Virus record (IMG/VR): IMGVR_UViG_3300009104_000039 | Coordinates: 1-42,976 of that record | Reading direction: 5' to 3' (one strand) | DNA: 42,976 nucleotides | Origin: a virus | Shown: piece after piece, positions 6,304 through 37,404 of the stretch | Layout: each line of letters opens with the position of its first letter | Numbering within the stretch: position 1 is the first letter of the stretch | Notes under the pieces: generated by a model | The model's database searches: none | What the model was told of the DNA's origin: nothing | What the model saw: the letters and a program-made list of their open reading frames with translations, nothing else | Position numbers and translations under genes: made by a program

Positions 6304-6314
6304 TTGTTATATCC

Positions 6315-6593
6315 TTAAGGTTTAGTAGGCCAAGTTACATCTGCATAAACTGTATTACTAGCAGGAATGTCTCTTAATGATTGCCTATATGTTTTCATTG
6401 CATCACTCATTGTAACATCATCCAAACCATAGTGGTCTGTTTCTCTCAACAAAGTATCTCGATGCTGTCTGATTTGTGCCATCTCTCTCCCAGCCGCACC
6501 AGCTTTCCATTCTGCTTCTTCTTTATCGCGTTGTGCTTCTTCTTCTGCGGTAAGAGGCATATCAACTCCGTCAACATTCTTCATTCTACCCAT
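6315..6593 (-). CDS. Phage tail assembly chaperone-like protein
   Basis: 92 residues. The C-terminal half carries the pattern of the small tail-assembly chaperone family (Pfam Phage_tail_APC type): RDTLLRETDHYGLDDVTMSD, then MKTYRQSLRDIPA and a final TWPTKP. The N-terminal half is a charged helix (LTAEEEAQRDKEEAEW). Such proteins are commonly encoded next to tail-fibre genes and are thought to help fibre assembly. It is flanked by virion genes on both sides in the same late direction. The family call is from the motif; which fibre it serves cannot be told. Confidence 0.7.
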   Translation of the reverse strand: MGRMKNVDGVDMPLTAEEEAQRDKEEAEWKAGAAGREMAQIRQHRDTLLRETDHYGLDDVTMSDAMKTYRQSLRDIPASNTVYADVTWPTKP

Positions 6594-6624
6594 AACTTGT
6601 TACTCCTTTTGTTGTTATTGTTAT

Positions 6625-10186: not shown

Positions 10187-11026
10187 TTATTGATCCACAT
10201 TATATCTTACAATAACAATACCAGAACCTCCAGTACCGCCAACAGATGATCCTCCACCTGTATTGACTCCACCGGGTTGATTAGCTGCAGTAGTTGTACC
10301 ACCACCTCCACCTAGTCCACCTGGTTGAATACTTGTATAGCTAGTTACACCTCCACCTCCACCACCTCCACCGGCATAAAAAACATTACTGCCGTTTCGG
10401 TAAGCATTTTGTAAACCATCACCACCTTCAGTATTTGGACCAGCTCCTGCGGCACCTGCTCCTCCACCAGATCCACCAAAACCCGCACTATGACTATTTC
10501 TATCTGTACTACTACCACCGGGATTTCCTTGACCCGGAGTACCTGCGCCACCTCCTAAACCGCCGTGATTTCCTGCACCTGCTCCTCCTCCTGATCCACC
10601 AGTTGTTCCCGGTCCACCATAACCAGAACCACGTGCGCCTCCAATCGAAGCAGTAGAAGTAATAAGAGAACTTGGAAGTGAAGATGGTTGACCTGCTGTA
10701 GAAGCAGCTCCTCCACCACCAACAACAACTTGTCCAGAACCCGGATTAATAGTTAATCCAGTTTGTACAACCATACCACCGGCACCCGCGGCACCACTTG
10801 CCGTTCCACCTTCTGGCATACCATGAACTGCCGGTGATCCACCTCCACCAGAAACTACCATCACATCAACAATACCTTGAGCTGATGCTGTTAATGTTCC
10901 CGTATTCAAAAAAGTGTGTGATCTATAACTTACTCCACCTTGTTCATATTCATTTATATCATCACCACCTTCTAATTCAAAACCACCACCAGCGCCGACA
11001 TGGATTCCCCGATTAATAAACGCCAT
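10187..11026 (-). CDS. Glycine-rich receptor-binding adhesin
   Basis: 279 residues. After an N-terminal beta segment (SYRSHTFLNTGTLTASAQGI, then VDVMVVSGGGGSP), residues ~75-270 are very Gly/Ala/Ser-rich with many GGGAG and GGGG runs. The chain ends in a strand typical of the family (GGTGGSGIVIVRYNVDQ). Poly-glycine sandwich adhesins such as gp38 of Salmonella phage S16 use Gly-rich helices for receptor binding; the resemblance here is in composition and layout. Location next to the Mtd-N-like fibre supports a tip role. The exact receptor is unknown. Confidence 0.75.
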   Translation of the reverse strand: MAFINRGIHVGAGGGFELEGGDDINEYEQGGVSYRSHTFLNTGTLTASAQGIVDVMVVSGGGGSPAVHGMPEGGTASGAAGAGGMVVQTGLTINPGSGQVVVGGGGAASTAGQPSSLPSSLITSTASIGGARGSGYGGPGTTGGSGGGAGAGNHGGLGGGAGTPGQGNPGGSSTDRNSHSAGFGGSGGGAGAAGAGPNTEGGDGLQNAYRNGSNVFYAGGGGGGGGVTSYTSIQPGGLGGGGGTTTAANQPGGVNTGGGSSVGGTGGSGIVIVRYNVDQ

Positions 11027-11029
11027 ATT

Positions 11030-12238
11030 TTATGCCTTACATTTTAACATGAATCTTACACCCGCACCAGGAGTAGATGAACCTACTTGTGTAACTTTAA
11101 AAGCTATTCTATCACCAGATACAAATGTAGTTGTTGAAAAACCACCAGGAGTCATTACTGATGTATTCTGTGAAAAAGAAGGTTTAGAAGTATAAATTGA
11201 TGATCCATTTTTTTCTATATCTAAAAGTACATTTGAACCATTACATTGAGTATCTATATATCCAACATCTCCTTCAAATGTTCCACTTCTGGCCATTACC
11301 ATTACACCATATGTCTGCCCAGCAACTAAATTTTTTCCCGCAAAACTACCACTATAACCTGCTACAAAAGATATATCATAATTCCAACCTGCTGTTCTTG
11401 CCCAATTAGTACCATCATAATACATAAGATCGTTTAATGTATCACCACCTAATGCAATCTTTTGACCACTTATCGCATTGTCTGCTATATCTACACCCGT
11501 AATTGTTGAATTTTCTATTTCTGCAGATCGAATAGTTCCCGGAGCTATTGATGCATTAGTAATTGTTTGTGCTGTAATTTTTGCCTCAGTTATTGCATCA
11601 TCAGCTATCTTAGCGCTTGTAACATTTGAATCAAGAATTTTTATAGTTGTTATAGAATCACTTGCTATCTTATCAGCTGTTACATTAGAATCTAATATGT
11701 GTGATGTTGTTACAGCATCATCAGCTAGTTCAGTCGCTGTTATTGTGTTCGCGGCTATCTGTGCATTAGAAACTGTACCAGTTAAATCACCACCTACAGC
11801 AACATCTAAATCAATAGTATCAAAAGCCCAATTACCAGCACCATCTGTTTTAAGAAATTGTCCTGCTGTACCATCAGAAAAAAACAATTCAGTAATACCA
11901 ATTACTCCTGCACCTATCTGAATATTTGCGACTGTACCTGTAACATCACCACCTACAGCGGTTCCACTTGTATCAACTGTATCAAAAGAAAAATTCCCAG
12001 CTCCATCTGTTTTGAGAAATTGTCCAGCTGTTCCATCAGAAAAATTTAATTGATTAATACCAACACTATTTGAAACATTACTTAAATCTTCTCTCGCTAA
12101 TGGATAACCTCCAGCCAACATATTATCATGTACCACGAGGGTATCCTTAGTGGTATCAACTGTGCATTCACCTTCTGCACCAGTAAATACGCTATGTTCA
12201 GTTGTGGTTCCTCTTCTTATTTGGACTCTTTTTGCCAT
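11030..12238 (-). CDS. Tail fibre with Mtd-N-like head and decapeptide stalk repeats
   Basis: 402 residues. Residues ~4-50 (RVQIRRGTTTEHSVFTGAEG, then TKDTLVVHDN) match the N-terminal beta-prism domain found in major tropism determinant and other fibre proteins. Residues ~62-109 and ~116-160 are an internal duplication (FSDGTAGQFLKTDGAGN, then VGGDVTGTV). Residues ~165-262 are repeats of about ten residues (IADDAITEAK type), suggesting a long triple-stranded stalk. The last ~120 residues (GWNYDISFVAGYSGSFAGK onward) form a jelly-roll-like head. A virion fibre is very likely; the receptor is unknown. Confidence 0.78.
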   Translation of the reverse strand: MAKRVQIRRGTTTEHSVFTGAEGECTVDTTKDTLVVHDNMLAGGYPLAREDLSNVSNSVGINQLNFSDGTAGQFLKTDGAGNFSFDTVDTSGTAVGGDVTGTVANIQIGAGVIGITELFFSDGTAGQFLKTDGAGNWAFDTIDLDVAVGGDLTGTVSNAQIAANTITATELADDAVTTSHILDSNVTADKIASDSITTIKILDSNVTSAKIADDAITEAKITAQTITNASIAPGTIRSAEIENSTITGVDIADNAISGQKIALGGDTLNDLMYYDGTNWARTAGWNYDISFVAGYSGSFAGKNLVAGQTYGVMVMARSGTFEGDVGYIDTQCNGSNVLLDIEKNGSSIYTSKPSFSQNTSVMTPGGFSTTTFVSGDRIAFKVTQVGSSTPGAGVRFMLKCKA

Positions 12239-12446: not shown

Positions 12447-15400
12447 GCCATTGCGATTGCTCTCAAATCTAGTATTCTAGGAACATGAGGTGTACTTGCA
12501 TTTCCTGTCATTACTACTTTAATTGCAAATGTTTTAAAAGATGTAAAAGTTGCCGAACCTACAGTATAATTTACATGAAAATTTACAGGATCATATTGAT
12601 ATTCAACCATATCATTTTCATCTAATGAAACTGTATTTGCATTACTTGATTGATTCATAGCTACCCAATTTTTATCATCAAAACGGTCAGAATCATAAAG
12701 TGATAAAATTTTATAATAAACATGAATATCTGTTCCAGCAGGTTTATTGGCAGTTAAAACTACTGTCAAATCACTCGCATCAAAACCATCAGATAAAGTT
12801 ACTCGTCTTGTAATATATCTTGCTACAGCATCACCACCAGATGGTGCTTCCGCTTCACCTGTAGTAAGATTATTAATAGTATTTTCTATTCCGATAACTC
12901 CCATACGACCTGTATCAAGAACAGGACTAACATGACCACTAGAATTTGTTGAAGATAAAGTAGCTTTAGCAAGATAACTACCTGATGTAGTTGTAATAAC
13001 TTTTTGAGATTCAAACTCATGGTTTTTGTTTATAACTACACCTTCATATTCGGATCCTAAAGTTCCACCGAATGTAGTTGTTTTAACCGACCAATCAATT
13101 GCAGTATTATCTACTTTAATTTCTTGTGGTGTTAATTGCATAACATTCATTTTAAAATCTGCAACAGTATTATTATTTTTAAATACAGCTTCATGTGTTC
13201 CAGAAGTTGTAAAATTACATCTATTTAATTTAAATGTCAAATCTTGATTCTGTTCTTGTTGCCATGTAGTTGCATTCTGTGATTTAAATAAAACACCTAT
13301 GTAAGGTTGTTTAGAAACTTTCCTTGTTGAACCAAGTACATTTTCACCCATTTCAGCAAAGAAACATTCATAAGCATTACTATTAGAATCAATAACAAGT
13401 GCATATTCACCAGGTGCAAGATAAACAGGAGATGGAAATACCCAATTAGTAACTGCTGAAGCATCATCACTTATATTAATTTCAGAAGGTAATTTACTTA
13501 CATCAGAAAAAGGTGCAACTAATACAGATGGAAAACCTACCTCTGTTGCTCTTATAGAAATATTGACAGGAACATTACCAGGATCTTTACCTTTAAAATA
13601 TAAATCTACATCTGATAAATGAATACCATCAGGATAAATATTTGGATCAATAAAAAATGTTTGAGCAAGTGGATCCCGCCTTGGAGGTGCTGCCCATCCT
13701 ATAACAACATCTCTATCAAATCGTCTTGTAGTTACAATTTGTTCTTGTGCTGAACCTGTACCACCAACATGAAGTCTTGGTATTCTTGAAGAAAGAATTA
13801 CTTCTTCCGTAGTAGATAGTAAACCTTGTGCTTGGAACATTGCTTCACCAAAAGTACTCGCATTTTCTAAATTACCATTTGAATCATCTGTTAAAAGAAA
13901 TTGTCTTTCTCCTGTTCGGAATACTAACAAAGGAGGATTTTGTTCTTGTGCAAAATCAGGACAAGGTAATTCAAATCTCAAATCACTAATAGAACCAGAA
14001 TCATCTGTATAAATTGGATCTCCAAGATTACCCTGAGGACTAGCCGTTGCATTTGGTCTACAATAAATTGCTACATCTGTTTTATCAAAGAAAGGATAAA
14101 CTCTTGTATTTGGTTTCAAACCTGTAGCAGAAACAGTAAGATTTTGTGCGCGAATAAAAGGAAGTACAGAAAGATCAACAACTCTTTCACCCAAACTTTG
14201 ATTAATTGTTTGTGAACCAACTATTTCTGTTCTTATACCAGATCGTGATTGAAGTTGATCGACAGCAAATGTTTGTTCTTGGACTAATGCCCTACCACGC
14301 CATTCCGCTTCACCTCTTGCAACAACTCTTTCATTTCTTCCCGTACCAATATCTTGCCAATCATTCCATTGACTACCAAAACCTAACCCGGCAAGAGATT
14401 CCCAAGCATCATTCTCTCCTGTAGCATTAACAACAACTTCAGGTCTATTATTTTTTGCTACCCAAAGATCATTAGGAGGATCAAGAGCTACAACACCTTG
14501 CCACTCCTGAACATCAAATGGATTAACACTAGTAAAAGAAGTAGCATCTGTTTGTGTAACAAATGGAGTTGAAGTATAAGCTAATGTAATTAAATCACCT
14601 GTTTGTTGAACACCAGTAGAAGCACCAGAGTCATATGCTATATTAGTAAAATCTGAAAAGAATGGTGGCCTCAATTCTCTTTTTTGAAAATCAATAGCAC
14701 ATTTATAATCTTCATTGAAAACATTACCTACACTATGACCTGCAAAGTCATCAACTAAAATTCCATTTTTAAATCTATCTAAACCATTTTCATCTTTAAT
14801 TAGTAATGCTTCGGCATCTTTTTCCAATAATGTAAGAGCAGTATAATATTCAACATTATTTAATCTTTTTTCTAACTTACCAATATCTTTCATTGTATAT
14901 CTTTTGTTTTCAATATAAACTGCTGTAATATCAGTTGGGTTAAATGTATATGCTGGAATTTGTAATTGCCACAAATTCATTGTACCATCCAATCTATATG
15001 GAGGTACTGGATTATCAGCTGAAACACCTTTATGGACTCCAAATTGTTTATCCTTTCCAACAAAAAGTGTATCCATTCTTGCTAAATAATAATTATAATC
15101 TGCTGACCAATTTGTATTAGGTTGTGGAACTTGAACACCAGCTTCCATAGCAGTAGTACCATCTGTCCTTCTTGGTCTAAAATCTATACAATCTCGTAAT
15201 TCAACTTTATTACCATTTACTACGGAAATATAACTGGGAATTAAATCATATGTAGTTGTTGCTGTATATGAATCAACGGAAAAATAACCTTCTCCCGCAT
15301 GGGAAAAATAATCCATAATAACTAAAAGTTGTCCTGTTGGTGCCGTACCTGTTAATTGGATTCTACCATGATCGTAAAAATTATCTCTTTGTCCGGTATC

Positions 15401-23634: not shown

Positions 23635-24057
23635 TTATCTTACCCTCTCTAGGTATAAACTTACTTCAATTGGTTCCGGTGAATTGACAACGGTAAATAC
23701 GATAGTTATATTAAATCCATTTCTTCCTAAATCTTCTGTTACACTTATATTATTAACTTGAACTCTAGGTTCATAATTAGTTAAACAAATTCCGATAGCT
23801 CTTTCTATATCATATTTTGTATGTGCTGATGAAAGACCAAATAAATGCCGTGTAACACCACCATCAATTTCAGGATGAAAAGGTTTTTCATATAAATTTA
23901 ATTGTATGAGATTTCTAACAGATCGTTTAACAGATTCAATATTTCTTTTAACGGATACATCATTTGTTACAGGATGTCTTGTAAAATCCAAATCTAAATC
24001 AGACCATGTTCTGGTATTCGTAGAAAGTCCTTTACTAATAATTCTAGTAGTTGGCAT
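23635..24057 (-). CDS. gp25: Baseplate wedge subunit gp25
   Basis: 140 residues, near the T4 length of 132. The family core is clear: WSDLDLDFTRHPVTNDVSV, KRNIESVKRSVRNLIQLNL, then YEKPFHPEIDGGVTRHLFGL and an ERAI...NYEPRVQVNNISV stretch. The EKPFxPxxG motif is shared by gp25, TssE and other contractile-injection wedge proteins, where it contacts the sheath initiator. It ends exactly at the gp6 start, and GAGGA upstream lies in the tail of the small basic gene before it. Function is secure by homology. Confidence 0.93.
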   Translation of the reverse strand: MPTTRIISKGLSTNTRTWSDLDLDFTRHPVTNDVSVKRNIESVKRSVRNLIQLNLYEKPFHPEIDGGVTRHLFGLSSAHTKYDIERAIGICLTNYEPRVQVNNISVTEDLGRNGFNITIVFTVVNSPEPIEVSLYLERVR

Positions 24058-26668: not shown

Positions 26669-26713
26669 AGTAGTATGAAATTAAGAAATCAACAATTTAA
26701 TAAGGATTCAAAA

Positions 26714-26968
26714 ATGAATTTAACTGAGAAAGAAATTAAGAAATTGAAAAAAGAAGGAAAATGGACTAAATGTAAACCCCAAAAGAAGCGAATTAAATCT
26801 GTTATCAGTTCATCCGCTTCTATGCATCAGAAAGGTTCTTTTGGATGGTCCTCTCCAATGAATAAAAATGGAGTATCATCAATATACTTTTCTGAAACAA
26901 ACCGTAAACCACGAAACGGTGGCGAGTCTAAATCAAATGGCAAACTTTCTGAAAATCGAGCGTGGTAA
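26714..26968 (+). CDS. First early-operon protein, small and basic, unknown
   Basis: 84 residues from the ATG at 26714, chosen because AAGGA sits 7 nt upstream. An in-frame ATG at 26675 coincides with the predicted transcription start and would be leaderless. The protein begins MNLTEKEIKKLKKEGKWTKC, then is rich in Lys, Ser and Asn (KPQKKRIKSVISSSASMHQK, ETNRKPRNGGESKSNG) and looks largely disordered after the first helix. Early expression and basic character would fit a host-takeover or nucleic-acid-binding role, but there is no recognisable family. Confidence 0.6.
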   Translation: MNLTEKEIKKLKKEGKWTKCKPQKKRIKSVISSSASMHQKGSFGWSSPMNKNGVSSIYFSETNRKPRNGGESKSNGKLSENRAW

Positions 26969-26970
26969 AA

Positions 26971-27051
26971 ATGACTATTAAAGAAATTTTAACAGATATA
27001 TTGCTTTTCAGTTTACTTGGATTATTAATTATTTTGATGTTGTGTTTATAA
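26971..27051 (+). CDS. 26-residue single-span membrane peptide
   Basis: The ATG comes 2 nt after the previous stop. The peptide MTIKEILTDILLFSLLGLLI plus ILMLCL is almost entirely one hydrophobic helix after an acidic-basic head. There is no clear ribosome site of its own, so it would rely on coupling with the gene before it. Real small membrane peptides are common in such phage operons, but at this length chance cannot be excluded. Confidence 0.4.
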   Translation: MTIKEILTDILLFSLLGLLIILMLCL

Positions 27052-27072
27052 AGAAGTTAAGAGGTTAATATT

Positions 27073-27237
27073 ATGAAATTTAAAACTAAAATTTTTACTT
27101 GGTCTCCTTCAAAAAATAGAACTATTATCACAAATGGTTTATTTAACAATTCTATTAAAATGACCATTTCAGATATTAACTTGAAGCGTGCTAAGAGAAT
27201 TAAGAAAAATAAAATTAATTATAAATTTGTATATTAG
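27073..27237 (+). CDS. 54-residue basic early protein, unknown
   Basis: ATG at 27073 with AAGAGG about 8 nt upstream. The protein is Lys/Asn-rich (MKFKTKIFTWSPSKNRTIIT, then INLKRAKRIKKNKINYKFVY), strand-like in the first half and a basic helix at the end. It stops 9 nt before the next gene and has its own ribosome site, which supports it as genuine. No family is recognised. Confidence 0.55.
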   Translation: MKFKTKIFTWSPSKNRTIITNGLFNNSIKMTISDINLKRAKRIKKNKINYKFVY

Positions 27238-27246
27238 GAGATATTA

Positions 27247-27540
27247 ATGAATATGTTATTAAGTAATTTATACCGAGAATTGAGTAAAGAACCGAATAGT
27301 CCAGAAGCATTTATTGCTAACGTAATTTATACTCGCTATTCAAAGAATAGAAAAAAAATGTTAGAAGGTTTATATAACATTATTAATGGTGGTCCTAAAC
27401 ATTATTGGGCGCCTTGCCATGTAACATTTGCTCCATTTCAAATGAAAACGATTTTGGCAACTCCTGCAAATCCAGCATTTGGAAAATCAGGGGACCGTAT
27501 TAAAGAAATTGATATTGAAAATTTACCATTCTACGCATAG
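27247..27540 (+). CDS. Early-operon protein of unknown function (97 aa)
   Basis: A strong AGGAG lies 8 nt before the ATG. The protein begins MNMLLSNLYRELSKEPNSPE and has a central helix (FIANVIYTRYSKNRKKMLEG, LYNIINGGP), then an aromatic segment (KHYWAPCHVTFAPF) and a positively charged tail. The single Cys is not part of a metal site. It looks like a compact soluble protein. Spacing to both neighbours is 8-9 nt. No family is recognised. Confidence 0.62.
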   Translation: MNMLLSNLYRELSKEPNSPEAFIANVIYTRYSKNRKKMLEGLYNIINGGPKHYWAPCHVTFAPFQMKTILATPANPAFGKSGDRIKEIDIENLPFYA

Positions 27541-27548
27541 GAGAAATT

Positions 27549-27833
27549 ATGCACGATACAAGAACAGAAAAAGTTTTGAATAATTTAAATATGTTTGATA
27601 ATGAAAAATTTTATCGAAACATTATAGACAACTGCTCAATGTATGCAGTTAAGCCTAATGGCAACAAACTTTGGTTAATGGATAATTGGGTTTTGGTTCA
27701 ATGGGCTTCTTGTGAACATCATAATCCTTTTGAAACATGGAAATTGCCTAAGAATCAAGCAAGAGAATATTTTGATTCTTTGATTTCAGAAAACGATTTG
27801 AATGTACCACCTCATTTAAAATATAGGACTTAA
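27549..27833 (+). CDS. Early-operon protein of unknown function (94 aa)
   Basis: TAGGAGAA precedes the ATG. The sequence (MFDNEKFYRNIIDNCSMYAV, LWLMDNWVLVQWASCEHHNP, FETWKLPKNQAREYFDSLIS) is Trp-rich with a beta-hairpin-like centre and helical ends, suggesting a small alpha/beta fold. There is no catalytic signature. Its place in the tight early operon suggests host interaction, which is inference. Confidence 0.62.
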   Translation: MHDTRTEKVLNNLNMFDNEKFYRNIIDNCSMYAVKPNGNKLWLMDNWVLVQWASCEHHNPFETWKLPKNQAREYFDSLISENDLNVPPHLKYRT

Positions 27834-27836
27834 AAT

Positions 27837-28079
27837 ATGAAAACTGAAAAAACATATAAATTAGAAATTCCAAGAGCGCAGTTTGATCGTATCGGCGATG
27901 CTTTTGAATTAGAAGATCATTATGTCAACGGATACGATATTAATAAAGATACTATAACTTTTACCGTATCAGAAAATCAACGAAAAAGATTTGCTAAACA
28001 TGCAGTAAAACAAAAAAATCATTTGTACTGGATAACTCAAATCTTTCTACCACGAAACATTAAAAAATATGAAAAATAA
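27837..28079 (+). CDS. Early-operon protein of unknown function (80 aa)
   Basis: The ATG follows the previous stop by 3 nt and has AGGA upstream. The protein reads YKLEIPRAQFDRIGDAFELE, GYDINKDTITFTVSENQRKR, then a basic helix and YWITQIFLPRNIKKYEK. The beta-strand, helix, strand pattern fits a small globular protein. Its last 11 nt overlap the next gene. No family is recognised. Confidence 0.6.
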   Translation: MKTEKTYKLEIPRAQFDRIGDAFELEDHYVNGYDINKDTITFTVSENQRKRFAKHAVKQKNHLYWITQIFLPRNIKKYEK

Positions 28080-28266
28080 AAAATTTAAAATAATAAAAGA
28101 AGCAGCTGAACGGATTGACCCTCCTAGAGGAGTAGAAATTCGATTTGTCAAATCTCAAAAAAAGGGATGGGTTGCAATAACGAAAGACGATAGAGATTGG
28201 CATTTTGGAATCTCTGAGGATGAAATGATGAACCATCTTATTAATGAAGCAGAAGCGAGGTGTTAA
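28069..28266 (+). CDS. Early-operon protein of unknown function (65 aa)
   Basis: It starts inside the end of the preceding gene (11-nt overlap), without a clear ribosome site, so coupling is likely. It has a basic start (MKNKKFKIIKEAAERI), a strand pair (GVEIRFVKSQKKGWVAITKD, DRDWHFGIS) and an acidic C-terminal helix (EDEMMNHLINEAEARC). It looks like a small beta-alpha domain. The stop overlaps the ribosome region of the next gene. Confidence 0.58.
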   Translation: MKNKKFKIIKEAAERIDPPRGVEIRFVKSQKKGWVAITKDDRDWHFGISEDEMMNHLINEAEARC

Positions 28267-28267
28267 T

Positions 28268-28495
28268 ATGAATTATATGATTGAATCTAATAATGAATGG
28301 TATGCAGAACAAGCAGAAAAGCTTGTTGCTCATATCAACAAACTTAATGCTGATGCACAAAAGCAAATGGAGAATGATCCTGATTTGTGGATTGGTATGT
28401 TGACTAATGATATTTTTCATTGGGCAGAGTATGGTGTCCATACTGTTGCTGATTTAGAAAAGTATCTGGATGCAGAAGCAGAAGGGGAATATTAA
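28268..28495 (+). CDS. Early-operon acidic helical protein (75 aa)
   Basis: The ATG at 28268 was chosen because GAGG lies 7 nt upstream; an earlier in-frame ATG at 28244 lies inside the previous gene and lacks a site. The protein is helical and acidic (ESNNEWYAEQAEKLVAHINK, ADAQKQMENDPDLWIGMLTN, VHTVADLEKYLDAEAEGEY). Small acidic early proteins of phages often bind and inhibit host proteins; here that is only a possibility. No family is recognised. Confidence 0.6.
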   Translation: MNYMIESNNEWYAEQAEKLVAHINKLNADAQKQMENDPDLWIGMLTNDIFHWAEYGVHTVADLEKYLDAEAEGEY

Positions 28496-28496
28496 A

Positions 28497-28691
28497 ATGA
28501 CAATGATGCTATCACAAATGGGTTATGTTCACAAGTTTGTTTTGGTGAACAATTTTAAACGCCTTCCTAATTATACCAACGGATATATTTCTTGGAAGGA
28601 TTATAGAGGCAATATTGTAACACTTGCAGACGTTATGGATATTGTGGATAATATGTCATTTAAAGAATTACAGGAGCTTGCAGAAAAATAA
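28497..28691 (+). CDS. Early-operon protein of unknown function (64 aa)
   Basis: The ATG at 28497 lies 1 nt after the previous stop, with AAGGGGA about 8 nt upstream; a longer frame from 28470 would overlap the previous gene without a site. The protein reads MLSQMGYVHKFVLVNNFKRL, NGYISWKDYRGNIVTLADVM, DIVDNMSFKELQELAEK: a beta pair followed by two helices. The stop overlaps the next ATG by 1 nt (TAATG). Confidence 0.58.
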   Translation: MTMMLSQMGYVHKFVLVNNFKRLPNYTNGYISWKDYRGNIVTLADVMDIVDNMSFKELQELAEK

Positions 28692-28927
28692 TGTTTAACT
28701 CTACACGAAATAATAAGACAGCTGAGATCCTCAGCAAAGTCAATTTAAAAGAACTTGTTCCAAGTGATATGAAGGTCCCACCTTTGAGACTGGAAACAAG
28801 TTTGCAAAATGTAACTTGGTTATGCCGTAATCTAATGGTGCAGAACAAACACCATCCAGAAGCAAAACAGACTTTAGCAAAATTAAATATGTTAAGAAAT
28901 AAAGTATTACTATTAGGAGATTTATAA
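28691..28927 (+). CDS. Early-operon helical protein (78 aa)
   Basis: It starts on TAATG, coupled to the gene before, and ends on TAATG with the gene after. The sequence (NKTAEILSKVNLKELVPSDM, RLETSLQNVTWLCRNLMVQN, PEAKQTLAKLNMLRNKVLLL) predicts three amphipathic helices. There are no metal or catalytic motifs. It could be a small protein-binding module; no family is recognised. Confidence 0.58.
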   Translation: MFNSTRNNKTAEILSKVNLKELVPSDMKVPPLRLETSLQNVTWLCRNLMVQNKHHPEAKQTLAKLNMLRNKVLLLGDL

Positions 28928-29117
28928 TGGAAGAAGTGAATACAATGACAATTTATTGTCCTACTTGTGATGGTGATAATGTCAAACTAATTAAAGGAAC
29001 TATTTTTAAAGAAGGAAATAAATGGGAGTGTATTACTAAGAAAAAGAATTGTCCGAATTTTACTGTAAAGGAACAAATGTTATTTGATCCTCCAGATTGG
29101 GATGATTTAGATTTAGA

Positions 29118-29127
<10 letters not shown>
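28927..29127 (+). CDS. Small zinc-ribbon-like protein overlapping tRNA-Pro
   Basis: 66 residues; AGGAG about 8 nt upstream supports the ATG at 28927. It contains CPTC at residues ~11-14 and a second pair C...C ([10 protein letters not shown]), the four-Cys layout of a small zinc ribbon. The tail is strongly acidic ([14 protein letters not shown]). Its last 10 nt are also the first 10 nt of the tRNA gene, and the TAG stop is supplied by tRNA bases 8-10. DNA or protein binding is inferred from the ribbon. Confidence 0.6.
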
Positions 29128-29194
<67 letters not shown>

Positions 29195-29214
29195 TAAACT
29201 TTAAGGAGAATAAA

Positions 29215-29445
29215 ATGAAAATGATTGATGCAAACTATTATCAATGCCCTTATTGCAAATCAGAATCTATTGAATGTGATGAACATTACTTTGATGGGAG
29301 TGTTGTGAACTGCCATATGAGTTGTGTAGATTGTGAAGAGCAATGGGATGAATGTTATGAAATGACAGCACGTTATACTAAAGAAGGTAATACATTGCAA
29401 GTATTTCCTACATATGAAAATAAAATTTTAAAGGAGTTAAACTAA
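29215..29445 (+). CDS. Zinc-ribbon protein (76 aa)
   Basis: AAGGAG lies upstream of the ATG. Two CxxC pairs are clear: YQCPYCKSESIECDEHYFDG and NCHMSCVDCEEQWDECYEMT. The spacing (CPYC about 26 residues before CVDC, then QW) is the small zinc-ribbon fold found in many phage and bacterial accessory proteins. The C-terminal segment forms a strand pair and a helix. It ends on TAATG coupled to the next gene. The partner is unknown. Confidence 0.7.
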   Translation: MKMIDANYYQCPYCKSESIECDEHYFDGSVVNCHMSCVDCEEQWDECYEMTARYTKEGNTLQVFPTYENKILKELN

Positions 29446-29732
29446 TGAAATTAAAACAACTTGGAAGTAATCAAACCGAAGTCGTATTTAAAGATGGCAC
29501 TTATGTTCTGTTTTCTTATGAAACACCCGTAGCCGTTTCAACAGCAGAAGGAATGTTTGTTACAGAACAAAAGTATTCTAACACGACAACAAAACATATC
29601 AATAAATGGTGTAATGGAATTAGTTTACGTCATACAATTCCACAGGAATTGATTGATAATTTAATCTCTGGTGTTAGTCCAAAAGCTTCACTTAAATTGA
29701 GAACAGCTTCAAGACTCAATAATGTTTCTTGA
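29445..29732 (+). CDS. Conserved small phage protein (DUF8033-like), end of the early operon
   Basis: 95 residues. The pattern VVFKDGTYVLFSYETPVAVS, TEQKYSNTTTKHINKW, ELIDNLIS is that of a small phage family that I associate with DUF8033 (a beta sheet followed by a Trp at the KHINKW motif). It is coupled to the zinc-ribbon gene by TAATG, with GGAG 9 nt upstream. The last 17 nt overlap the convergent minus-strand gene at 29716. The function of the family is unknown. Confidence 0.6.
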   Translation: MKLKQLGSNQTEVVFKDGTYVLFSYETPVAVSTAEGMFVTEQKYSNTTTKHINKWCNGISLRHTIPQELIDNLISGVSPKASLKLRTASRLNNVS

Positions 29733-29955
29733 GGAATTTATAACAAACTACTAATACTAGAACAGCACCAAGAACAATTCCAAAATTCTCAAGTGAGGAC
29801 CTCCCACCCGAGGCCTCACATTGTTCTTTGGGTTTCTCCGCTTCAACTTTAATAGTTTCCAGAACCATACTGGGAGTTGTTATCAATCCTGCATCATGTA
29901 CCTGTTTTATTTCACCATTGACATCTATTGAATAATTATATAGATTCTGATTCAT
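29716..29955 (-). CDS. Small protein with C-terminal membrane anchor
   Basis: 79 residues, with AGGAAAGAG before the ATG. The first ~55 residues are soluble (YSIDVNGEIKQVHDAGLITT, VEAEKPKEQCEASGGRSS). Residues ~57-72 form one membrane span (FGIVLGAVLVLVVCYKF) ended by KKHY. The ATG overlaps the end of the cyclo-ligase gene by 20 nt, so the two are coupled. A tail-anchored peptide near a peptidase gene could take part in lysis, but no holin or spanin signature is clear. Confidence 0.58.
   Translation of the reverse strand: MNQNLYNYSIDVNGEIKQVHDAGLITTPSMVLETIKVEAEKPKEQCEASGGRSSLENFGIVLGAVLVLVVCYKFLKKHY
29793..29819. terminator. GC-rich hairpin at the convergent gene junction
   Basis: The arms GTGAGG (29793-29798) and CCTCAC (29814-29819) enclose a second stem CCTC/GAGG with a 6-nt loop. 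The stem is unusually GC-rich for this genome and lies about 60 nt after the end of the plus-strand early operon. No clean U tract follows on either strand, so termination is only a possibility. It lies inside the 79-residue gene. Confidence 0.4.
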
Positions 29956-30508
29956 CTCTTTCCTTTCTCCAATGTAAATTCCTATATATGTATTCTTCCG
30001 TTACTAACATATCCATAGGAATATCATGGCCTTCTGGTGAGAATAGATATTCTCCTTTTACGATTTGTTCCTCATAAGCCAATCCTACAGCATAGGTACC
30101 TAATTGAGACAAAAGAATATCATAGAATCCTTTCCCTCTCCCCAACCTGTTTAATTCCAAATCAAATACAACTCCTGGACAAATAACTAGATCAATCCCT
30201 TTATCCTGATATTGTCTCACATAAGCAGGTTCTACTTTATACAAGTGTTCTTCAGGAACAATAATCTCTTTACCTAGTCTCTTGGCTTCTTCTAACACTT
30301 TTACGGTAGAGACTTCATTGCCTATACTCTTATAACAATGAATTTTCTTTGCTTCAATCCATACACGCTGTTCAAACAACTGTTTACATACTATATTACT
30401 CTTACGGTTGACATCTTCAACATCCATCTGTTTACGCTGTTCGAGGTATTTTCCCCTCAGGATCTTCTTCTCTACACTCTTGTACATCTCGTTTCTTATT
30501 TGTACCAT
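29936..30508 (-). CDS. 5-formyltetrahydrofolate cyclo-ligase (MTHFS)
   Basis: 190 residues, the normal length of the family. It converts 5-formyl-THF plus ATP to 5,10-methenyl-THF, returning a stalled folate to one-carbon metabolism. The motifs are in order: KKILRGKYLEQRKQM (N-terminal basic helix), YKSIGNEVST, DLVICPGVVFDLELN, RLGRGKGFYD (nucleotide/substrate loop, residues ~121-130) and HDIPMDMLVTE near the end. The ATG at 30508 is preferred because GAGGAGG lies 9 nt upstream; a GTG at 30517 is also in frame. It overlaps the small gene upstream by 77 nt and the membrane gene downstream by 20 nt. In a phage this would be an auxiliary metabolic gene feeding purine or dTMP synthesis. Confidence 0.88.
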   Translation of the reverse strand: MVQIRNEMYKSVEKKILRGKYLEQRKQMDVEDVNRKSNIVCKQLFEQRVWIEAKKIHCYKSIGNEVSTVKVLEEAKRLGKEIIVPEEHLYKVEPAYVRQYQDKGIDLVICPGVVFDLELNRLGRGKGFYDILLSQLGTYAVGLAYEEQIVKGEYLFSPEGHDIPMDMLVTEEYIYRNLHWRKERDESESI

Positions 30509-30605
30509 TCTCATCACCCTCCTCAGTTACCAATAATTCTTCTAATAACTCACACCCTTCCATAGTAAAGATCGTGTTCTTACCGAAGTCTTTGAATGAA
30601 ATCAT
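30432..30605 (-). CDS. 57-residue acidic protein overlapping the cyclo-ligase start
   Basis: ATG at 30605 with a strong AAGGAG upstream. The protein reads MISFKDFGKNTIFTMEGCEL, LEELLVTEEGDENGTNKKRD, then VQECREEDPEGKIPRTA: a short beta start, an acidic middle and a disordered tail. It runs 77 nt into the cyclo-ligase gene in another frame, and its middle supplies the ribosome site of that gene. The good site argues for expression; the long overlap makes it less certain. Confidence 0.5.
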   Translation of the reverse strand: MISFKDFGKNTIFTMEGCELLEELLVTEEGDENGTNKKRDVQECREEDPEGKIPRTA

Positions 30606-30675: not shown

Positions 30676-31092
30676 CTAGTAAACAAATACTCCTTGTGGT
30701 TTATCATAGTCTACATCTACATGCAGAAATTCTTTGTGAACACCTACTCTATCAAAGAACCTCAAACAGTACTTCAATAGATCGTGGCGTTCACCCATAC
30801 TCTTACAACCTATATCAGCTGCGATACACTTGATATGCGAGGAAGTATCACGGGAACCTATATTACGATTATGACTGAGGCAACGTATTCCTGAAGTAAT
30901 TATCATAGACTTACCGTAATCATCTCTAACCCTCTGTAACCGATTTACTAACAATTCACTAATAGTACCTGTACCACATCCGCATTTACAGTCAAACTCC
31001 TCTTTAGTGAAATTAGCTGTAAGTTTAGTCATACTGCTCTCCCAATTAAATAGCTTCTTCCCATCTAGTGTGTAGTTAAAGTTTGTTGACAT
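30676..31092 (-). CDS. M15-family peptidase, endolysin candidate
   Basis: 138 residues. It has the peptidase M15 (D,D-carboxypeptidase/L-alanyl-D-glutamate endopeptidase) signature: SGIRCLSHN at ~67, SSHIKCIAADIG giving H86 and D93, and LHVD giving H124, the three zinc ligands. The N-terminal part ANFTKEEFDCKCGCGTG is typical of the single-domain enzymes, here with a Cys cluster. It would cut peptidoglycan cross-links at lysis. The start at 31092 overlaps the upstream stop (TAATG). A second ATG at 31032 has GGGAGAG upstream and would give 118 residues, so the true start is uncertain. Confidence 0.85.
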   Translation of the reverse strand: MSTNFNYTLDGKKLFNWESSMTKLTANFTKEEFDCKCGCGTGTISELLVNRLQRVRDDYGKSMIITSGIRCLSHNRNIGSRDTSSHIKCIAADIGCKSMGERHDLLKYCLRFFDRVGVHKEFLHVDVDYDKPQGVFVY

Positions 31093-31268
31093 TATCCGCC
31101 AGTTACATTAATACTGTTATCTTCTCTCTTTATTATAGGAATCTTATCTTCATCTCTATTGAGATTCTTCATCAATGTAGATACAAGTTTCTGTAATCTA
31201 AGGTTCTCATCAATAATATGATCTATCCATAGATCGTCTTGAGGTGTATCTCCTACAGGTTTATCCAT
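31092..31268 (-). CDS. 58-residue acidic protein coupled to the M15 peptidase
   Basis: ATG at 31268 with GGAG 8 nt upstream. The sequence MDKPVGDTPQDDLWIDHIID, ENLRLQKLVSTLMKNLNRDE, then DKIPIIKREDNSINVTGG predicts a single amphipathic helix flanked by loose ends. It ends on TAATG, shared with the peptidase start. It is the first gene after the palindrome-bearing promoter at 31319-31367. A helper or regulator of the lysis enzyme is possible but unsupported. Confidence 0.6.
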   Translation of the reverse strand: MDKPVGDTPQDDLWIDHIIDENLRLQKLVSTLMKNLNRDEDKIPIIKREDNSINVTGG

Positions 31269-31372: not shown

Positions 31373-31507
31373 CGGAAAAAATTGAGGCTCGTAAAATAAG
31401 TATCTCAAGTAAGCCGCTAAGATACCGCTGTTATATCCTGAGTTTACTGTCCATGTCGCTAAATCGCGCAACTTAGGTTCGGCCAGGTAATCTTTTCCCG
31501 TTCTCGA
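31373..31507 (-). other. Protein-like in-frame extension after the stop of the 102-residue gene
   Basis: Directly after the TAA at 31508-31510 the same frame stays open for 45 codons to a TAG at 31370-31372. It encodes SRTGKDYLAEPKLRDLATWT, VNSGYNSGILAAYLRYLFYE, PQFFP. The composition (Tyr, Leu, Trp, Ala, a clear amphipathic helix) looks like real protein. No ATG lies in frame; a TTG after about 14 codons is the only usual alternative start and lacks a ribosome site. It may be a readthrough extension, a decayed C-terminus, or part of a split gene. Confidence 0.4.
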
Positions 31508-31816
31508 TTACTTCTGTAATAAGCTGAGGATTTCCTCTAATTTACCGCGGTACTCCATGATATACTCTGCTTCATCTCCGTGTTCGTCATCATCAGCTTC
31601 CCTCAGCATGTCATCTAGTTCGTGGCACATATCAATCAGGTAACCGCAGAGAATGTCTAAGGAGCCGGATTCAAACTGGTATAATGAGGGATTGTCTTTG
31701 AGTTTCTCTGACATATCTGCAGCCCAACTGGTATCCTCTGGAAGTATCTCAACATCATTGAGTGCCAAGCGGATGTACTCAGTATGTTTCGGAGTCATAT
31801 CGGAAAGGAATCTCAT
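31508..31816 (-). CDS. Acidic helical protein at the end of the micro-gene array (102 aa)
   Basis: The sequence MRFLSDMTPKHTEYIRLALN, SLYQFESGSLDILCGYLIDM, CHELDDMLREADDDEHGDEA is helical and very acidic. The ATG has no strong site of its own but overlaps the stop of the 26-residue gene (ATGA), so coupling is likely. The frame is also open upstream of this ATG for 16 codons (RKILFLPENRRGYQIP), suggesting that the family may be longer. It is followed by an in-frame extension after its stop. No family is recognised. Confidence 0.6.
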   Translation of the reverse strand: MRFLSDMTPKHTEYIRLALNDVEILPEDTSWAADMSEKLKDNPSLYQFESGSLDILCGYLIDMCHELDDMLREADDDEHGDEAEYIMEYRGKLEEILSLLQK

Positions 31817-31893
31817 AGGGATCTGGTACCCTCTGCGGTTCTCTGGTAAAAATAGGATTTTCCTTTAAGTCGCCAAGTCCCTCTATGTTCCAT
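31813..31893 (-). CDS. 26-residue basic peptide in the micro-gene array
   Basis: The ATG at 31893 overlaps the previous stop (TGATG) and has AAAGGGG 8 nt upstream, a strong site. The peptide MEHRGTWRLKGKSYFYQRTA plus EGTRSL is basic and aromatic. Its TGA overlaps the ATG of the 102-residue gene (ATGA). Alone it is too short to trust, but the site and both junctions support it. Confidence 0.42.
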   Translation of the reverse strand: MEHRGTWRLKGKSYFYQRTAEGTRSL

Positions 31894-31988
31894 CAAACAC
31901 ACCCCTTTCCAATTTCCCCACTACATTCTCCAACCCATTCTGACATTATCCAACACTTCGTAACACTCTGTAACCCCTTATGAATCAT
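31893..31988 (-). CDS. 31-residue peptide in the micro-gene array
   Basis: The ATG overlaps the stop of the 42-residue gene (ATGA), and the stop overlaps the next ATG (TGATG). The peptide is MIHKGLQSVTKCWIMSEWVG plus ECSGEIGKGCV, with three Cys. There is no strong site; it depends on coupling. It may simply be an open stretch that keeps ribosomes moving. Confidence 0.35.
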   Translation of the reverse strand: MIHKGLQSVTKCWIMSEWVGECSGEIGKGCV

Positions 31989-32113
31989 GTACATACACCA
32001 CAGGCACACATTAACATCAATAAACCCATCATAAACGCTCCTACACACAACATTACAGCCATCCACCACCATTTCTCTCTCATGTTAGCTTTGTGTTCTT
32101 CCCAATCGTTCAT
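31985..32113 (-). CDS. 42-residue membrane protein in the micro-gene array
   Basis: MNDWEEHKANMREKWWWMAV begins a charged head with three consecutive Trp at the membrane edge. One hydrophobic helix follows (MLCVGAFMMGLLMLMCACG), ending with three Cys near the C-terminus. It starts 2 nt after the previous gene ends. The Trp-flanked single span is convincing as a real membrane peptide. A lysis or membrane-modifying role is possible, not shown. Confidence 0.55.
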   Translation of the reverse strand: MNDWEEHKANMREKWWWMAVMLCVGAFMMGLLMLMCACGVCT

Positions 32114-32115
32114 TC

Positions 32116-32262
32116 TTACTTACCTACACTAAGAAAGTGATCTAAAGTGATTTCTTTGTATGTTTTCGGTTTCTTATGTTCTGGCATTAGAAGCAAGTAC
32201 ACAATTCCACTTATAAAAGCTGATATAAGGAATATTCTGATTAATCCGTATAGAGTATCCAT
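32116..32262 (-). CDS. 48-residue membrane protein in the micro-gene array
   Basis: MDTLYGLIRIFLISAFISGI plus VYLLLM is one long hydrophobic helix, followed by a polar tail (PEHKKPKTYKEITLDHFLSV, GK). An N-terminal anchor with a basic inner segment suggests an N-out single-span protein. The ribosome site is weak. It lies 3 nt from the 29-residue gene before it and 2 nt from the one after. No family is recognised. Confidence 0.52.
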   Translation of the reverse strand: MDTLYGLIRIFLISAFISGIVYLLLMPEHKKPKTYKEITLDHFLSVGK

Positions 32263-32265
32263 GAA

Positions 32266-32355
32266 TCATTTCTCTGTCCATTTCTTACATCTCTTATTTA
32301 CATAGTCGTATTGTTCACAATACCACCAATTTAGTATGTACTTATAGAAATTCAT
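32266..32355 (-). CDS. 29-residue aromatic peptide in the micro-gene array
   Basis: The ATG overlaps the stop of the gene before it (TGATG). The peptide MNFYKYILNWWYCEQYDYVN plus KRCKKWTEK holds four Tyr, three Trp and two Cys in 29 residues and may lie on the membrane surface. It is very short, and its support comes from the coupled junction. Confidence 0.38.
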   Translation of the reverse strand: MNFYKYILNWWYCEQYDYVNKRCKKWTEK

Positions 32356-32528
32356 CAGTTATCCTTCCATATTTTACGCCATTTTTGATCCATGATCTCC
32401 TTATCTGATTCAGTCATTTCATAGTTATCGTCTTGTAATCTCTCCGCTAATCTCTTTAGTGATAGTCCGTTTTCTGTGAGTTCTTCGTCATTTTCCTTTA
32501 AGATAGATTGTAAGAGAGGATAGTTCAT
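32355..32528 (-). CDS. 57-residue helical protein in the micro-gene array
   Basis: The ATG at 32528 is chosen over a GTG at 32537 because TAGGTGG lies upstream and the ATG overlaps the previous stop (ATGA). The protein is acidic and helical (NYPLLQSILKENDEELTENG, LSLKRLAERLQDDNYEMTES, DKEIMDQKWRKIWKDN), with no Cys and no membrane span. It may be a small partner protein. No family is recognised. Confidence 0.56.
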   Translation of the reverse strand: MNYPLLQSILKENDEELTENGLSLKRLAERLQDDNYEMTESDKEIMDQKWRKIWKDN

Positions 32529-32671
32529 GCTAACCACCTAATAAGTCCATATATGATACCAATGATGATACCAATACCCAAAACTCCACCTATCAGTAGT
32601 GTTATTAATCCACCCACGGGAGCCGAGTTACCTAGTAGAAATGGAATTAAAATTAAGTAGGGGTTTATCAT
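32525..32671 (-). CDS. 48-residue two-span membrane protein in the micro-gene array
   Basis: Two hydrophobic segments are separated by a Gly/Pro turn: MINPYLILIPFLLGNSAPVG, then LITLLIGGVLGIGIIIGIIY followed by GLIRWLA. The small hairpin shape and lack of charge fit a holin-like or pore-forming peptide, but no family motif is seen. It is coupled at both ends (TAATG before, ATGA after), which strongly supports it as a gene. Confidence 0.56.
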   Translation of the reverse strand: MINPYLILIPFLLGNSAPVGGLITLLIGGVLGIGIIIGIIYGLIRWLA

Positions 32672-32961
32672 TATTTCACCTTCCTTTTAGTAGTCTTACG
32701 TTTTGTTGTTGTTCGTTTTTTCGTTTTCTTCTTTACAGGAACAGGTGAGGAATCTTTACGTTTCTTACGTTTTAGTGATTCCTCAGCCTGTTTTGAGAAA
32801 GTGTAGTCTTTGGGTTCTATATCTTCTCCCTGCCAATGGTCGTGTCCTAGTTTCCTAAAGGCCTTAGACCAGTAAGAACGCATTTCACCCATATTTTGAT
32901 AAGTGTATCTCACCCATACTACGAAAAATATTAATATTACTAGAACTCCGAGGATTTCCAT
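32671..32961 (-). CDS. Membrane-anchored protein with very basic tail (96 aa)
   Basis: The N-terminal span MEILGVLVILIFFVVWVRYT is followed by a helical middle (QNMGEMRSYWSKAFRKLGHD) and a tail that is almost only Lys, Arg and Thr (KKKTKKRTTTKRKTTKRKVK). The basic tail should lie in the cytoplasm and could bind nucleic acid, suggesting tethering of DNA or ribosomes to the membrane. Starts and stops are coupled by TAATG at both ends. No family is recognised. Confidence 0.62.
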   Translation of the reverse strand: MEILGVLVILIFFVVWVRYTYQNMGEMRSYWSKAFRKLGHDHWQGEDIEPKDYTFSKQAEESLKRKKRKDSSPVPVKKKTKKRTTTKRKTTKRKVK

Positions 32962-33128
32962 TATTTCTCCTTAACTACTTCTTTTGTAGTTGTTTTAGGT
33001 GTCGGGGTATCATCTCCGAACCAATGGTAAGGATCGAATGTGAATAGTACTGCCGCGATTATGACGATTATTCCTAGTACGTTTATATGTGTTCCGTCAG
33101 GTTTCCAGCCAACCGGTTTGATGTCCAT
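32961..33128 (-). CDS. 55-residue single-span membrane protein
   Basis: The ATG at 33128 is used because AAGGAG precedes it; a longer frame from 33173 lacks a site and runs into the gene before. It has a short polar head (MDIKPVGWKPDGTHIN), one span (VLGIIVIIAAVLFTF) and a polar tail after DPYHWFGDD. It ends on TAATG with the next gene. The function is unknown; it is part of the micro-gene array. Confidence 0.56.
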   Translation of the reverse strand: MDIKPVGWKPDGTHINVLGIIVIIAAVLFTFDPYHWFGDDTPTPKTTTKEVVKEK

Positions 33129-33130
33129 TT

Positions 33131-33289
33131 TTACTTTACTCCTTCTTGTGTTAATTGATCTTCCTTCTCCCATATCATGTATTTATCTTTTCTAGGGTTT
33201 TGAGATAGTGATTTAGGGAAATATCCTGCTCCTTCTATGAATATATAGTCGTCTTTGAGGACTTCAGGTAGCTCTTTAGTCGAATCCAT
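33131..33289 (-). CDS. 52-residue protein in the micro-gene array
   Basis: ATG at 33289 with AGAGGA 6 nt upstream. The sequence MDSTKELPEVLKDDYIFIEG, AGYFPKSLSQNPRKDKYMIW, EKEDQLTQEGVK predicts a small soluble fold. It starts 14 nt inside the end of the preceding gene and supplies the ribosome site of the next gene at its own end (GAAGGAGTAAAG). No family is recognised. Confidence 0.56.
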   Translation of the reverse strand: MDSTKELPEVLKDDYIFIEGAGYFPKSLSQNPRKDKYMIWEKEDQLTQEGVK

Positions 33290-33497
33290 GATTGTCCTCT
33301 ATCTTGTTTAATGTACGTCTTATTTGAATAGTGAGATCGTCTAGTACTTTAATAGACTTTAGAAGATCATCTCGTTCTGTTGTCATACTATTGAGTTTGG
33401 CACGGAGTTGTTCTATCTGTGACTCAAGTATGACGCAACGCGTATGTAGTTGTGAGTCCTGAGGATGATTAGGGTCATAACCGGATTCATATGCCAT
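33276..33497 (-). CDS. Coiled-coil protein, first gene of the micro-gene array (73 aa)
   Basis: The ATG at 33497 is chosen over an in-frame GTG at 33506. After a short polar head (MAYESGYDPNHPQDSQLHTR), residues ~20-70 form one long heptad-patterned helix (CVILESQIEQLRAKLNSMTT, RDDLLKSIKVLDDLTIQIRR). Dimerisation is likely. The first 48 nt upstream are non-coding. The function is unknown; a scaffold or regulator is possible. Confidence 0.6.
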   Translation of the reverse strand: MAYESGYDPNHPQDSQLHTRCVILESQIEQLRAKLNSMTTERDDLLKSIKVLDDLTIQIRRTLNKIEDNHGFD

Positions 33498-33554
33498 TGT
33501 GTTCACCGTGGTTGAGGTTGTCCAGCGTAGAAAGACTGGGAAAATATGTGAGAC

Positions 33555-35964: not shown

Positions 35965-37404
35965 TTAGTTCAAAAGTATTAACGGCGCTCTTACTGAGAA
36001 TATACCGCCTACTAAATGAGATTCAGCTAAACCTGTAACAAAAGTCGATGCAAGAGTAACATTTAAATTATATGTACTCTGTGATGTTTGTATCATAGGA
36101 CCTGTAGAATACGCCTGCCAAGTTAAACCGGCATACTGATTGATAATACCTGCCGTGGCGAGACTCAAAGTTCCCAATGAATTTATGTCCATTGTTGTAG
36201 CTGCAAAATACCTAGAACCTAAAGTACTCGCTTGAGTAATATCGGCTAAAGAATAAAGATCATAACTACCCGTAACAATAGTTGTGTCCGTACCACTAAT
36301 TTTTATTTCTTCATTTCCACCTATTGTCAAGAAATCATTTGAACCAACAGATAAAGAATGTGAACCATTAACAACTTCCGTACTATCTGTTCCAACTGAT
36401 TTAACATCATTACCAGCAATCTTTGTTCTCATATCACCATGAACATTTAAATGGTAGTTACCCAAAACTTCATGCACCATTGTTCCTTGTACTTGTAATC
36501 TACAATCACCCATTATAGTTACTTCACAATCACCATTAACAAGTACGCGTTTTTCCTTAGCTACAATCTCGTAATCACTACCAACAACCTTAACAACTTT
36601 TGATCCATCTGGTTGTACTTCTTCAAATGTTCCAGCTTTATGATACCTATGTAATCTCTCTGCACCCGGTGTATCATCCCATTCTTCTACATGACCTGAC
36701 TCAGATTGTCTAACATGATTGTAAGGATATTTTGAAGAAGTTTTACCATAAGGTTCTCCGTCAGGTAATTTACCCGGAGTTAAATACTCAGTTGCACTAT
36801 CTTTTGTTCCCCCATATCTTGGATTAGGTTCATTCCAATAATCAAAATCATAATAATCTCCTTCATTAGCAATAATCAGACTTAGTGCATCTGTACCTTG
36901 TAAATCACCTGCTACAGCTTTAGGTACACCTGTTTGTCTAGTCTTTCTTTTCCATATTAAAGATGCATGATTCTCACCATTCTTTGAACCAACTGGCATT
37001 TTTCCTATACCTCTTGCCAGTCTATTTGTATCTGGTTCATTAAGATGAGTTTGTAGAGGATACAATCCAACAGGATCATTAAACCCTAATTTTGGATCAG
37101 CTGGTTCTTGTGGTCTACCTCCAAAGGTTCCTATAAAAACAGGTTCTTGTGCGTCTTTACCATCCCTAAAAAATCCAAAACACCAAGTACCTCGAACAGG
37201 ACCTATAGGAGTCGTACCAACACCACTCATAGCAGCTGAAGTAATAGGTTGCATAGGTGTAGCCCATGGAAGATCAGCTGTAGGAATAAGTTTTTTATCG
37301 TCTGTATGATAACCGACAATTCTTACTCTACAACGACCCAACTTTAATGGATCATCACGATCTTCAACAACACCTTGCCACCAAACAAATTCACCATATA
37401 TCAT
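35965..37404 (-). CDS. gp5: gp5-like central spike protein without a lysozyme domain
   Basis: 479 residues, versus 575 for T4 gp5. Residues ~1-95 are the OB-fold (FVWWQGVVEDRDDPLKLGRC, RVRIVGYHTD, WCFGFFRDGKDAQEPVFIGT). Residues ~100-235 are a linker where T4 has its lysozyme; no lysozyme motif is visible. Residues ~235-370 form the triple-stranded beta-helix (GHVEEWDDTPGAERLHRYHK, then VNGDCEVTIMGDCRLQVQG, NYHLNVHGDMRTKIAGN). It trimerises to puncture the outer membrane under the PAAR tip. Its start overlaps the stop of the hub gene before it by 4 nt. Confidence 0.87.
   Translation of the reverse strand: MIYGEFVWWQGVVEDRDDPLKLGRCRVRIVGYHTDDKKLIPTADLPWATPMQPITSAAMSGVGTTPIGPVRGTWCFGFFRDGKDAQEPVFIGTFGGRPQEPADPKLGFNDPVGLYPLQTHLNEPDTNRLARGIGKMPVGSKNGENHASLIWKRKTRQTGVPKAVAGDLQGTDALSLIIANEGDYYDFDYWNEPNPRYGGTKDSATEYLTPGKLPDGEPYGKTSSKYPYNHVRQSESGHVEEWDDTPGAERLHRYHKAGTFEEVQPDGSKVVKVVGSDYEIVAKEKRVLVNGDCEVTIMGDCRLQVQGTMVHEVLGNYHLNVHGDMRTKIAGNDVKSVGTDSTEVVNGSHSLSVGSNDFLTIGGNEEIKISGTDTTIVTGSYDLYSLADITQASTLGSRYFAATTMDINSLGTLSLATAGIINQYAGLTWQAYSTGPMIQTSQSTYNLNVTLASTFVTGLAESHLVGGIFSVRAPLILLN

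Follow-up and report, generated by a model that had tools for sequence, protein, structure and literature searches.

The minus strand of the viral sequence analysed here carries a tile of twelve small open reading frames, m1 to m12, that we hold with high confidence to be a real, mosaic operon of micro-genes. The sequence, referred to as the window, is 42,976 bases long, spans the whole of IMG/VR record IMGVR_UViG_3300009104_000039 and is probably a fragment of a larger genome. Ten of the frames are likely genes and two are probably not, judging from the comparison with related loci. Taken together, the evidence makes it fairly probable that about ten true micro-genes form a late, polycistronic island whose products act on the envelope, most likely around lysis. 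The tile was not inherited as one block; m5, m7 and the block containing m12 have separate histories.

Genomic setting of the tile

The T4-like markers recognised in the window are a gp5 baseplate hub (phrog_430), a gp4 head-closure homologue and a PAAR tip, and the best named matches of a gp53-like protein (32-33%) are in the pelagiphages Mosig and HTVC008M (Kyanoviridae). The source is, as read from its sequence, a marine T4-like myovirus that is Kyanoviridae-like. The tile runs on the minus strand from the spike and PAAR genes upstream to an M15 endolysin gene downstream and, as in a hyperplastic region, lies between conserved T4 core genes, namely the gp5 homologue (35965-37404; phrog_430, E 1.4e-103) and a gp25-like ORF (23635-24057) that was assigned by position and by sequence reading against Mosig and HTVC008M. 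The endolysin gene, b2 (30676..31092, minus strand; PF08291, E 3.5e-17; phrog_894 endolysin, E 6.7e-31), is joined by a TAATG overlap to b1 (31092..31268, minus strand), which encodes a coiled-coil-like protein of 58 aa with a positional counterpart in relatives at 23-26% identity. Adjoining the endolysin gene, on the minus strand at 29936-30517, is a gene for 5-formyltetrahydrofolate cyclo-ligase (PF01812, E 2.3e-28), possibly an auxiliary metabolic gene, with a 31% relative in locus L029.

The gp5-gp25 interval of Mosig and HTVC008M likewise holds variable small ORFs, which are tiled in HTVC008M, and in Mosig it contains a tRNA-Pro(tgg), as the window does at 29118. What sets the window apart is that a tblastn search with members of the m4, m5, m7 and m12 families gave no match in 50,697 phage records. 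A second tiling of small ORFs occupies the same interval of the window on the opposite, plus strand (26675-29732) and includes a chain of 7 ORFs of 1587 nt at 27549-29127, with the tRNA-Pro(tgg) at 29118-29194.

Tiling and start signals

The original prediction, made from the letters of the window and a list of its reading frames, described about 12 minus-strand ORFs of 26-102 codons each over 33497-31508, and the sequence bears this out. Every junction that it listed is present (TAATG at 32961 and 32671, ATGA at 32528, 31988 and 31816, TGATG at 32355 and 31893), as are the 14-nt overlap of m1 and m2 and the other gaps of 2-3 nt. Its count of at least five membrane peptides agrees with the clear, single-pass TM segments that we found in m3, m4, m5, m8 and m9, and its view that such tiling is improbable by chance was upheld. 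A chain was defined as a series of ATG-started ORFs, none shorter than 24 aa, in which each junction lies between -20 and +5 nt. By this definition the longest chain on the minus strand comprises 12 ORFs and 2019 nt, compared with 252 nt on the plus strand; in 500 dinucleotide shuffles the longest chain averaged 191 nt and reached a maximum of 579 nt, and none matched 2019 nt. When only small ORFs (105 aa or less) were allowed, the best chain in 30 kb of each pelagiphage was 822 nt in Mosig and 978 nt in HTVC008M. Such phages do tile small genes, and the tile in the window reaches about twice that length.

Of the 12 tile starts, 11 follow a Shine-Dalgarno-like match of 4 nt or more, compared with 30% of all minus-strand ATGs (binomial, about 1.5e-5). 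Codon-usage log-odds trained on long genes were weak for small frames and did not separate the frames for several of them. A promoter and terminator scan of the tile, which used the sigma-70 consensus only, gave nothing above background; the tile genes carry their own Shine-Dalgarno sites but, by that scan, not the promoter and terminator of their own that a moron would have. The tile is probably transcribed late together with the tail and endolysin genes, which lie on the same strand. Most of its genes would be translated from their own Shine-Dalgarno site and by stop/start coupling (TAATG, TGATG, ATGA), so that a newly acquired micro-gene could be translated wherever it was inserted.

Conservation of the frames in related loci

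Relatives of the tile were found by profile searches over fetched viral loci. The order m1, m3, m4, m5, m12 is the same in 3300009370_000033 (= 3300008624_000069), 3300009376_000066, 3300007514_000172 and 3300000325_000046, and m7 is also present in the first three. Homologues of these six frames lie between the tail-spike genes and the M15 endolysin gene in as many as four further viral contigs, and codon comparisons show conserved amino acids at synonymous sites that have diverged or are saturated. Except at tiny pS, pN/pS stays below 1, and the constraint is clearest for m7 (pS 0.8-1.0 against pN 0.10, window versus L076 and L082). For m1 and m4, pN/pS between the window and relatives is 0.54-0.94 at saturation, and roughly 0.2-0.6 among the relatives. 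Gene content varies between relatives: m2, m6, m8 and m9, which gave no sequence relatives in the profile search of the fetched loci, are orphans of the window, and relatives have other small ORFs. A second near-identical contig covers the tile only outside 31878-33461.

The original prediction would have been undermined by frameshifts and random substitution in relatives. The six frames withstand that comparison, while m10 and m11 fail it. It is very improbable that the tile as a whole is non-coding or decayed DNA, whether left over from a larger gene that broke up or opened by chance in DNA that is regulatory or AT-rich. That description probably fits m10 and m11, given the conserved non-coding array and the frame-breaking indels that relatives show in that slot; it is contradicted for the six frames, in which pN is below pS, and by the outcome of the 500 shuffles. 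The homologues, moreover, are likewise separate micro-genes and never one long ORF, which rules out a single large broken gene.

Searches of the tile proteins against PHROGs, Pfam, NCBIfam and PADLOC, and of m7 also against PDB sequences, gave nothing convincing. None of the libraries searched thus holds a match to the micro-protein families, although islands of this type are already known.

The individual frames

All of the frames are on the minus strand. The first, m1 (33276..33497), encodes a soluble, coiled-coil-like protein of 73 aa with homologues and with pN below pS; library searches returned weak coiled-coil matches alone. Its homologues directly follow tail-tip genes in L004, L006, L021, L029, L034, L039 and L040. 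Downstream of the PAAR-m1 pair in L004, ORFs among the small genes at 10357-11349 and 12551-13267 read like purM and purC, as far as sequence reading goes. The orphan m2 (33131..33289; 52 aa), which shares the 14-nt overlap with m1, has AGGA upstream and no homologue in the fetched loci; it is a probable gene. Next, m3 (32961..33128; 55 aa, one TM segment, AAGGAG upstream) has the conserved N-terminus KPxGxKPDGTHI and homologues in 4 independent contigs, with pN/pS of 0.38-0.54. The product of m4 (32671..32961; 96 aa) combines an N-terminal TM segment with a very basic C-terminal tail (net +16), and its homologues occur within the tile in 4 contigs and, in L024/L027, directly upstream of the endolysin gene. 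The frame m5 (32525..32671) encodes a hydrophobic membrane micro-protein of 48 aa (PFLLGNSAPVG...IIYGLIRWL).

Between m5 and m7, in the window only, is the orphan m6 (32355..32528; 57 aa), a clean insertion of a whole ORF relative to L034 and L039. The 29-aa product of m7 (32266..32355), WWYCEQYDYVNKRCKKW, has a C-x9-C arrangement (WYCEQYD...C), and its family comprises seven distinct members of 28-30 aa, the window included. Other matches to the WYCEQYD pattern were set aside: those in L048 and many similar loci belong to a separate family of 65-90 aa, and those in genome contigs are unrelated proteins. Two orphans with one TM segment each follow, m8 (32116..32262; 48 aa), with a weak start signal and no homologue in the fetched loci, and m9 (31985..32113; 42 aa), which matches by position a 28-aa TM ORF in relatives. 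The orphans m2, m6, m8 and m9 all look translatable. The last frame, m12 (31508..31816), encodes an all-helical, soluble protein of 102 aa with homologues in 4 contigs at 40-43%; its AF2-predicted structure (pLDDT 79.8) found no match better than E 0.89 in a fold search against the PDB.

The m10/m11 slot and the elements around m12

The two frames that we probably have to remove from the gene list are m10 (31893..31988, 31 codons) and m11 (31813..31893, 26 codons), because relatives have in their place a conserved non-coding stretch with frame-breaking indels. The DNA there is conserved, yet the frames are not preserved, which makes both unlikely as genes. The frame m10 overlies an array of [AG]TGT[CT] with a 10-nt period (31942..31966, minus strand) as well as a gap where the DNA of relatives is non-coding; m11 covers a conserved element, E1, that has a 5-nt indel in relatives. 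Profile searches of the fetched loci gave no homologue of m10, and none of m11 beyond a near-identical contig. In four relatives (L021, L034, L039 and L040) 3-5 copies of AGTGTY, with the same 10-nt period, stand at the same position and are followed by E1 with the 5-nt indel, and the array triple occurs nowhere else in the window. This stretch would be regulatory or linker DNA before m12.

Many unrelated viral contigs also contain arrays of AGTGTY that keep an exact 10-nt period and differ in their 4-nt spacers (at least 120 pattern matches), L108, L120, L145, L148, L170, L171, L104 and L143 being among the matches listed, and may possibly be arrays of binding sites. Since most of these matches are unrelated, the scan was uninformative for tracing the array of the window.

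Two conserved non-coding elements flank m12, E1 upstream (31830..31905, minus strand), identified in alignments and with a model built from the same sequences, and E2 downstream (31380..31452, minus strand), with a possible hairpin. They share a common core (GAGGGGGAC..TTA in relatives), one on each side of m12, which suggests a duplicated linker or a recombination site. As structured RNA they were rejected, given that their folding exceeds that of shuffled sequences in one relative only, and there marginally, and a search for early promoters in E1 and E2, restricted to promoters close to the sigma-70 consensus, found none beyond background.

Mosaic history of the tile

The DNA identities of the tile units are discordant. 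Between the window and L039 they are 88.7% for m5 and 87.8% for m7, and 57-63% for m1, m3, m4 and m12. Between L039 and L034 they are 99.4% for m12, 100% for E2 and 94-100% for E1/E2, and 58-78% for m1, m3, m4, m5 and m7. In L094/L095 a closely similar m5 is found by itself, with a TAATG joining it to the start of the clamp loader gene gp62 (phrog_225, E 1.5e-31). Similarly, m7 stands alone in L053/L075 after an nrdB-like gene, in L082 after a capsid-like gene and in L076 before the gene of a small lipoprotein (the names nrdB-like and capsid-like come from sequence reading only, without a library test). In this respect both m5 and m7 behave as expected of morons, each recurring at loci that are unrelated and with a divergence that disagrees with that of its surroundings. 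Because the identities are discordant and m5 and m7 stand alone elsewhere, the units of the tile have been swapped singly, and the breakpoints lie at the edges of genes or close to them. The coordinated set that the original prediction proposed holds only in part, since m5 and m7 move singly among phages and loci that are unrelated.

The exchange of m12 as a block between conserved linkers, here E1 and E2, resembles what is described for the PeSL (promoter-early stem-loop) cassettes of T4-type phages, which help to shuffle genes, going by the account of Arbiol et al. (2010) given in PMC4503421 and PMC4177764. Measured against that same account, E1 and E2 differ in having no early promoter beyond background (sigma-70 consensus only) and, in the window, no significant fold. 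The tile is also comparable to the ORFanage of S-PM2, an ORFan-rich plastic region of a T4-like cyanophage (PMC4503421), in its contiguous small genes without named homologues, its variability among relatives and its piecemeal acquisition. Unlike the ORFanage, the window keeps a six-gene order across lineages, is dominated by stop/start overlaps and has single micro-genes whose near-identical DNA at other loci allows them to be traced there.

A possible reading, to which we give somewhat less than even weight, is that the tile is an accretion of independent morons for host takeover or superinfection exclusion that share no pathway, the order being kept since the spot tolerates insertions. It would account for the single travel of m5 and m7, for the insertion of the orphan m6 exactly between genes and for the other small ORFs that fill the gp5-gp25 interval of pelagiphages, and it has a precedent in the ORFanage regions of T4-like cyanophages (PMC4503421). 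Against it, the order m1-m3-m4-m5-(m7)-m12 has held at about 40% amino-acid identity and the link between m4 and the endolysin gene recurs, both of which suggest some shared role. We prefer the island of true micro-genes acting on the envelope, with m5 and m7 as putative itinerant accessories. We tentatively propose that these two represent a wider class of itinerant micro-genes, 28-48 codons long, which pass from one marine phage to another as single units, bring their own ribosome sites and fit in by an overlap with the start codon that follows; phage operons would thus be remodelled one micro-protein at a time, and the tile would be an assembly point for action on the host envelope.

Possible relation to lysis

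Lysis is the leading functional guess and a plausible one, because the tile runs toward the M15 endolysin gene and because in L027 (and in L024, going by a profile match) an m4 homologue abuts the endolysin gene, the two overlapping through an ATGA at the endolysin start. It is nevertheless doubtful that the operon is mainly a lysis module. We regard as similarly unlikely the stricter proposal of a lysis cassette proper, in which m3-m9 would be one coordinated unit supplying a holin, an antiholin and a spanin-like set for the M15 endolysin. As in a holin-endolysin-spanin cassette, five small TM proteins adjoin on one strand an endolysin gene within the cluster (30676-31092; PF08291, phrog_894), and the neighbour of m7 in L076 is a lipoprotein with FVGC, a variant listed for o-spanins (PMC6139136), although its spanin match is very weak (E 0.032). 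Yet the tile micro-proteins gave no match to holin, antiholin or spanin families; the best holin match among them, m9 to phrog_297 (E 0.41), is at chance level, and single-TM candidates exist. A search of all tile products for the lipobox of an o-spanin or u-spanin, [LVI][ASTVI][GAS]C or a variant (PMC6139136), found none, and the tile therefore encodes no o-spanin. In addition, m5 and m7 also occur far from lysis genes, and the closest other endolysin contexts (L008-L020 and L023) are without the genes of the tile. Finally, the lysis genes of T4-like phages are usually unclustered (PMC6139136), so that a compact cassette here would depart from the norm.

The lipoprotein of L076 (6663-6881, minus strand; 72 aa) adjoins the stand-alone m7, and a coiled-coil protein with a hydrophobic C-terminal segment is encoded nearby (6308-6673, minus strand); the two are a possible spanin or lysis pair.

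With the envelope-acting island as the preferred explanation, the products of the tile would be mainly single-pass inner-membrane peptides, accompanied by a small number of short soluble partners; they would be made late and would act on the envelope of the host. Among them m4, with its TM segment and basic tail, would be the best candidate for a holin or for a protein of lysis timing.

Significance

Genes of 26-60 codons are routinely omitted from phage annotation. The comparative evidence presented here indicates that several such micro-genes are real, strongly constrained (m7, at 28-30 aa) and exchanged one by one. For uncultured marine T4-like phages, the tile offers concrete targets, small enough to test, in the study of functions in lysis or at the envelope late in infection. 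It is also a tractable case of operon evolution at the scale of micro-genes that is worth annotating.
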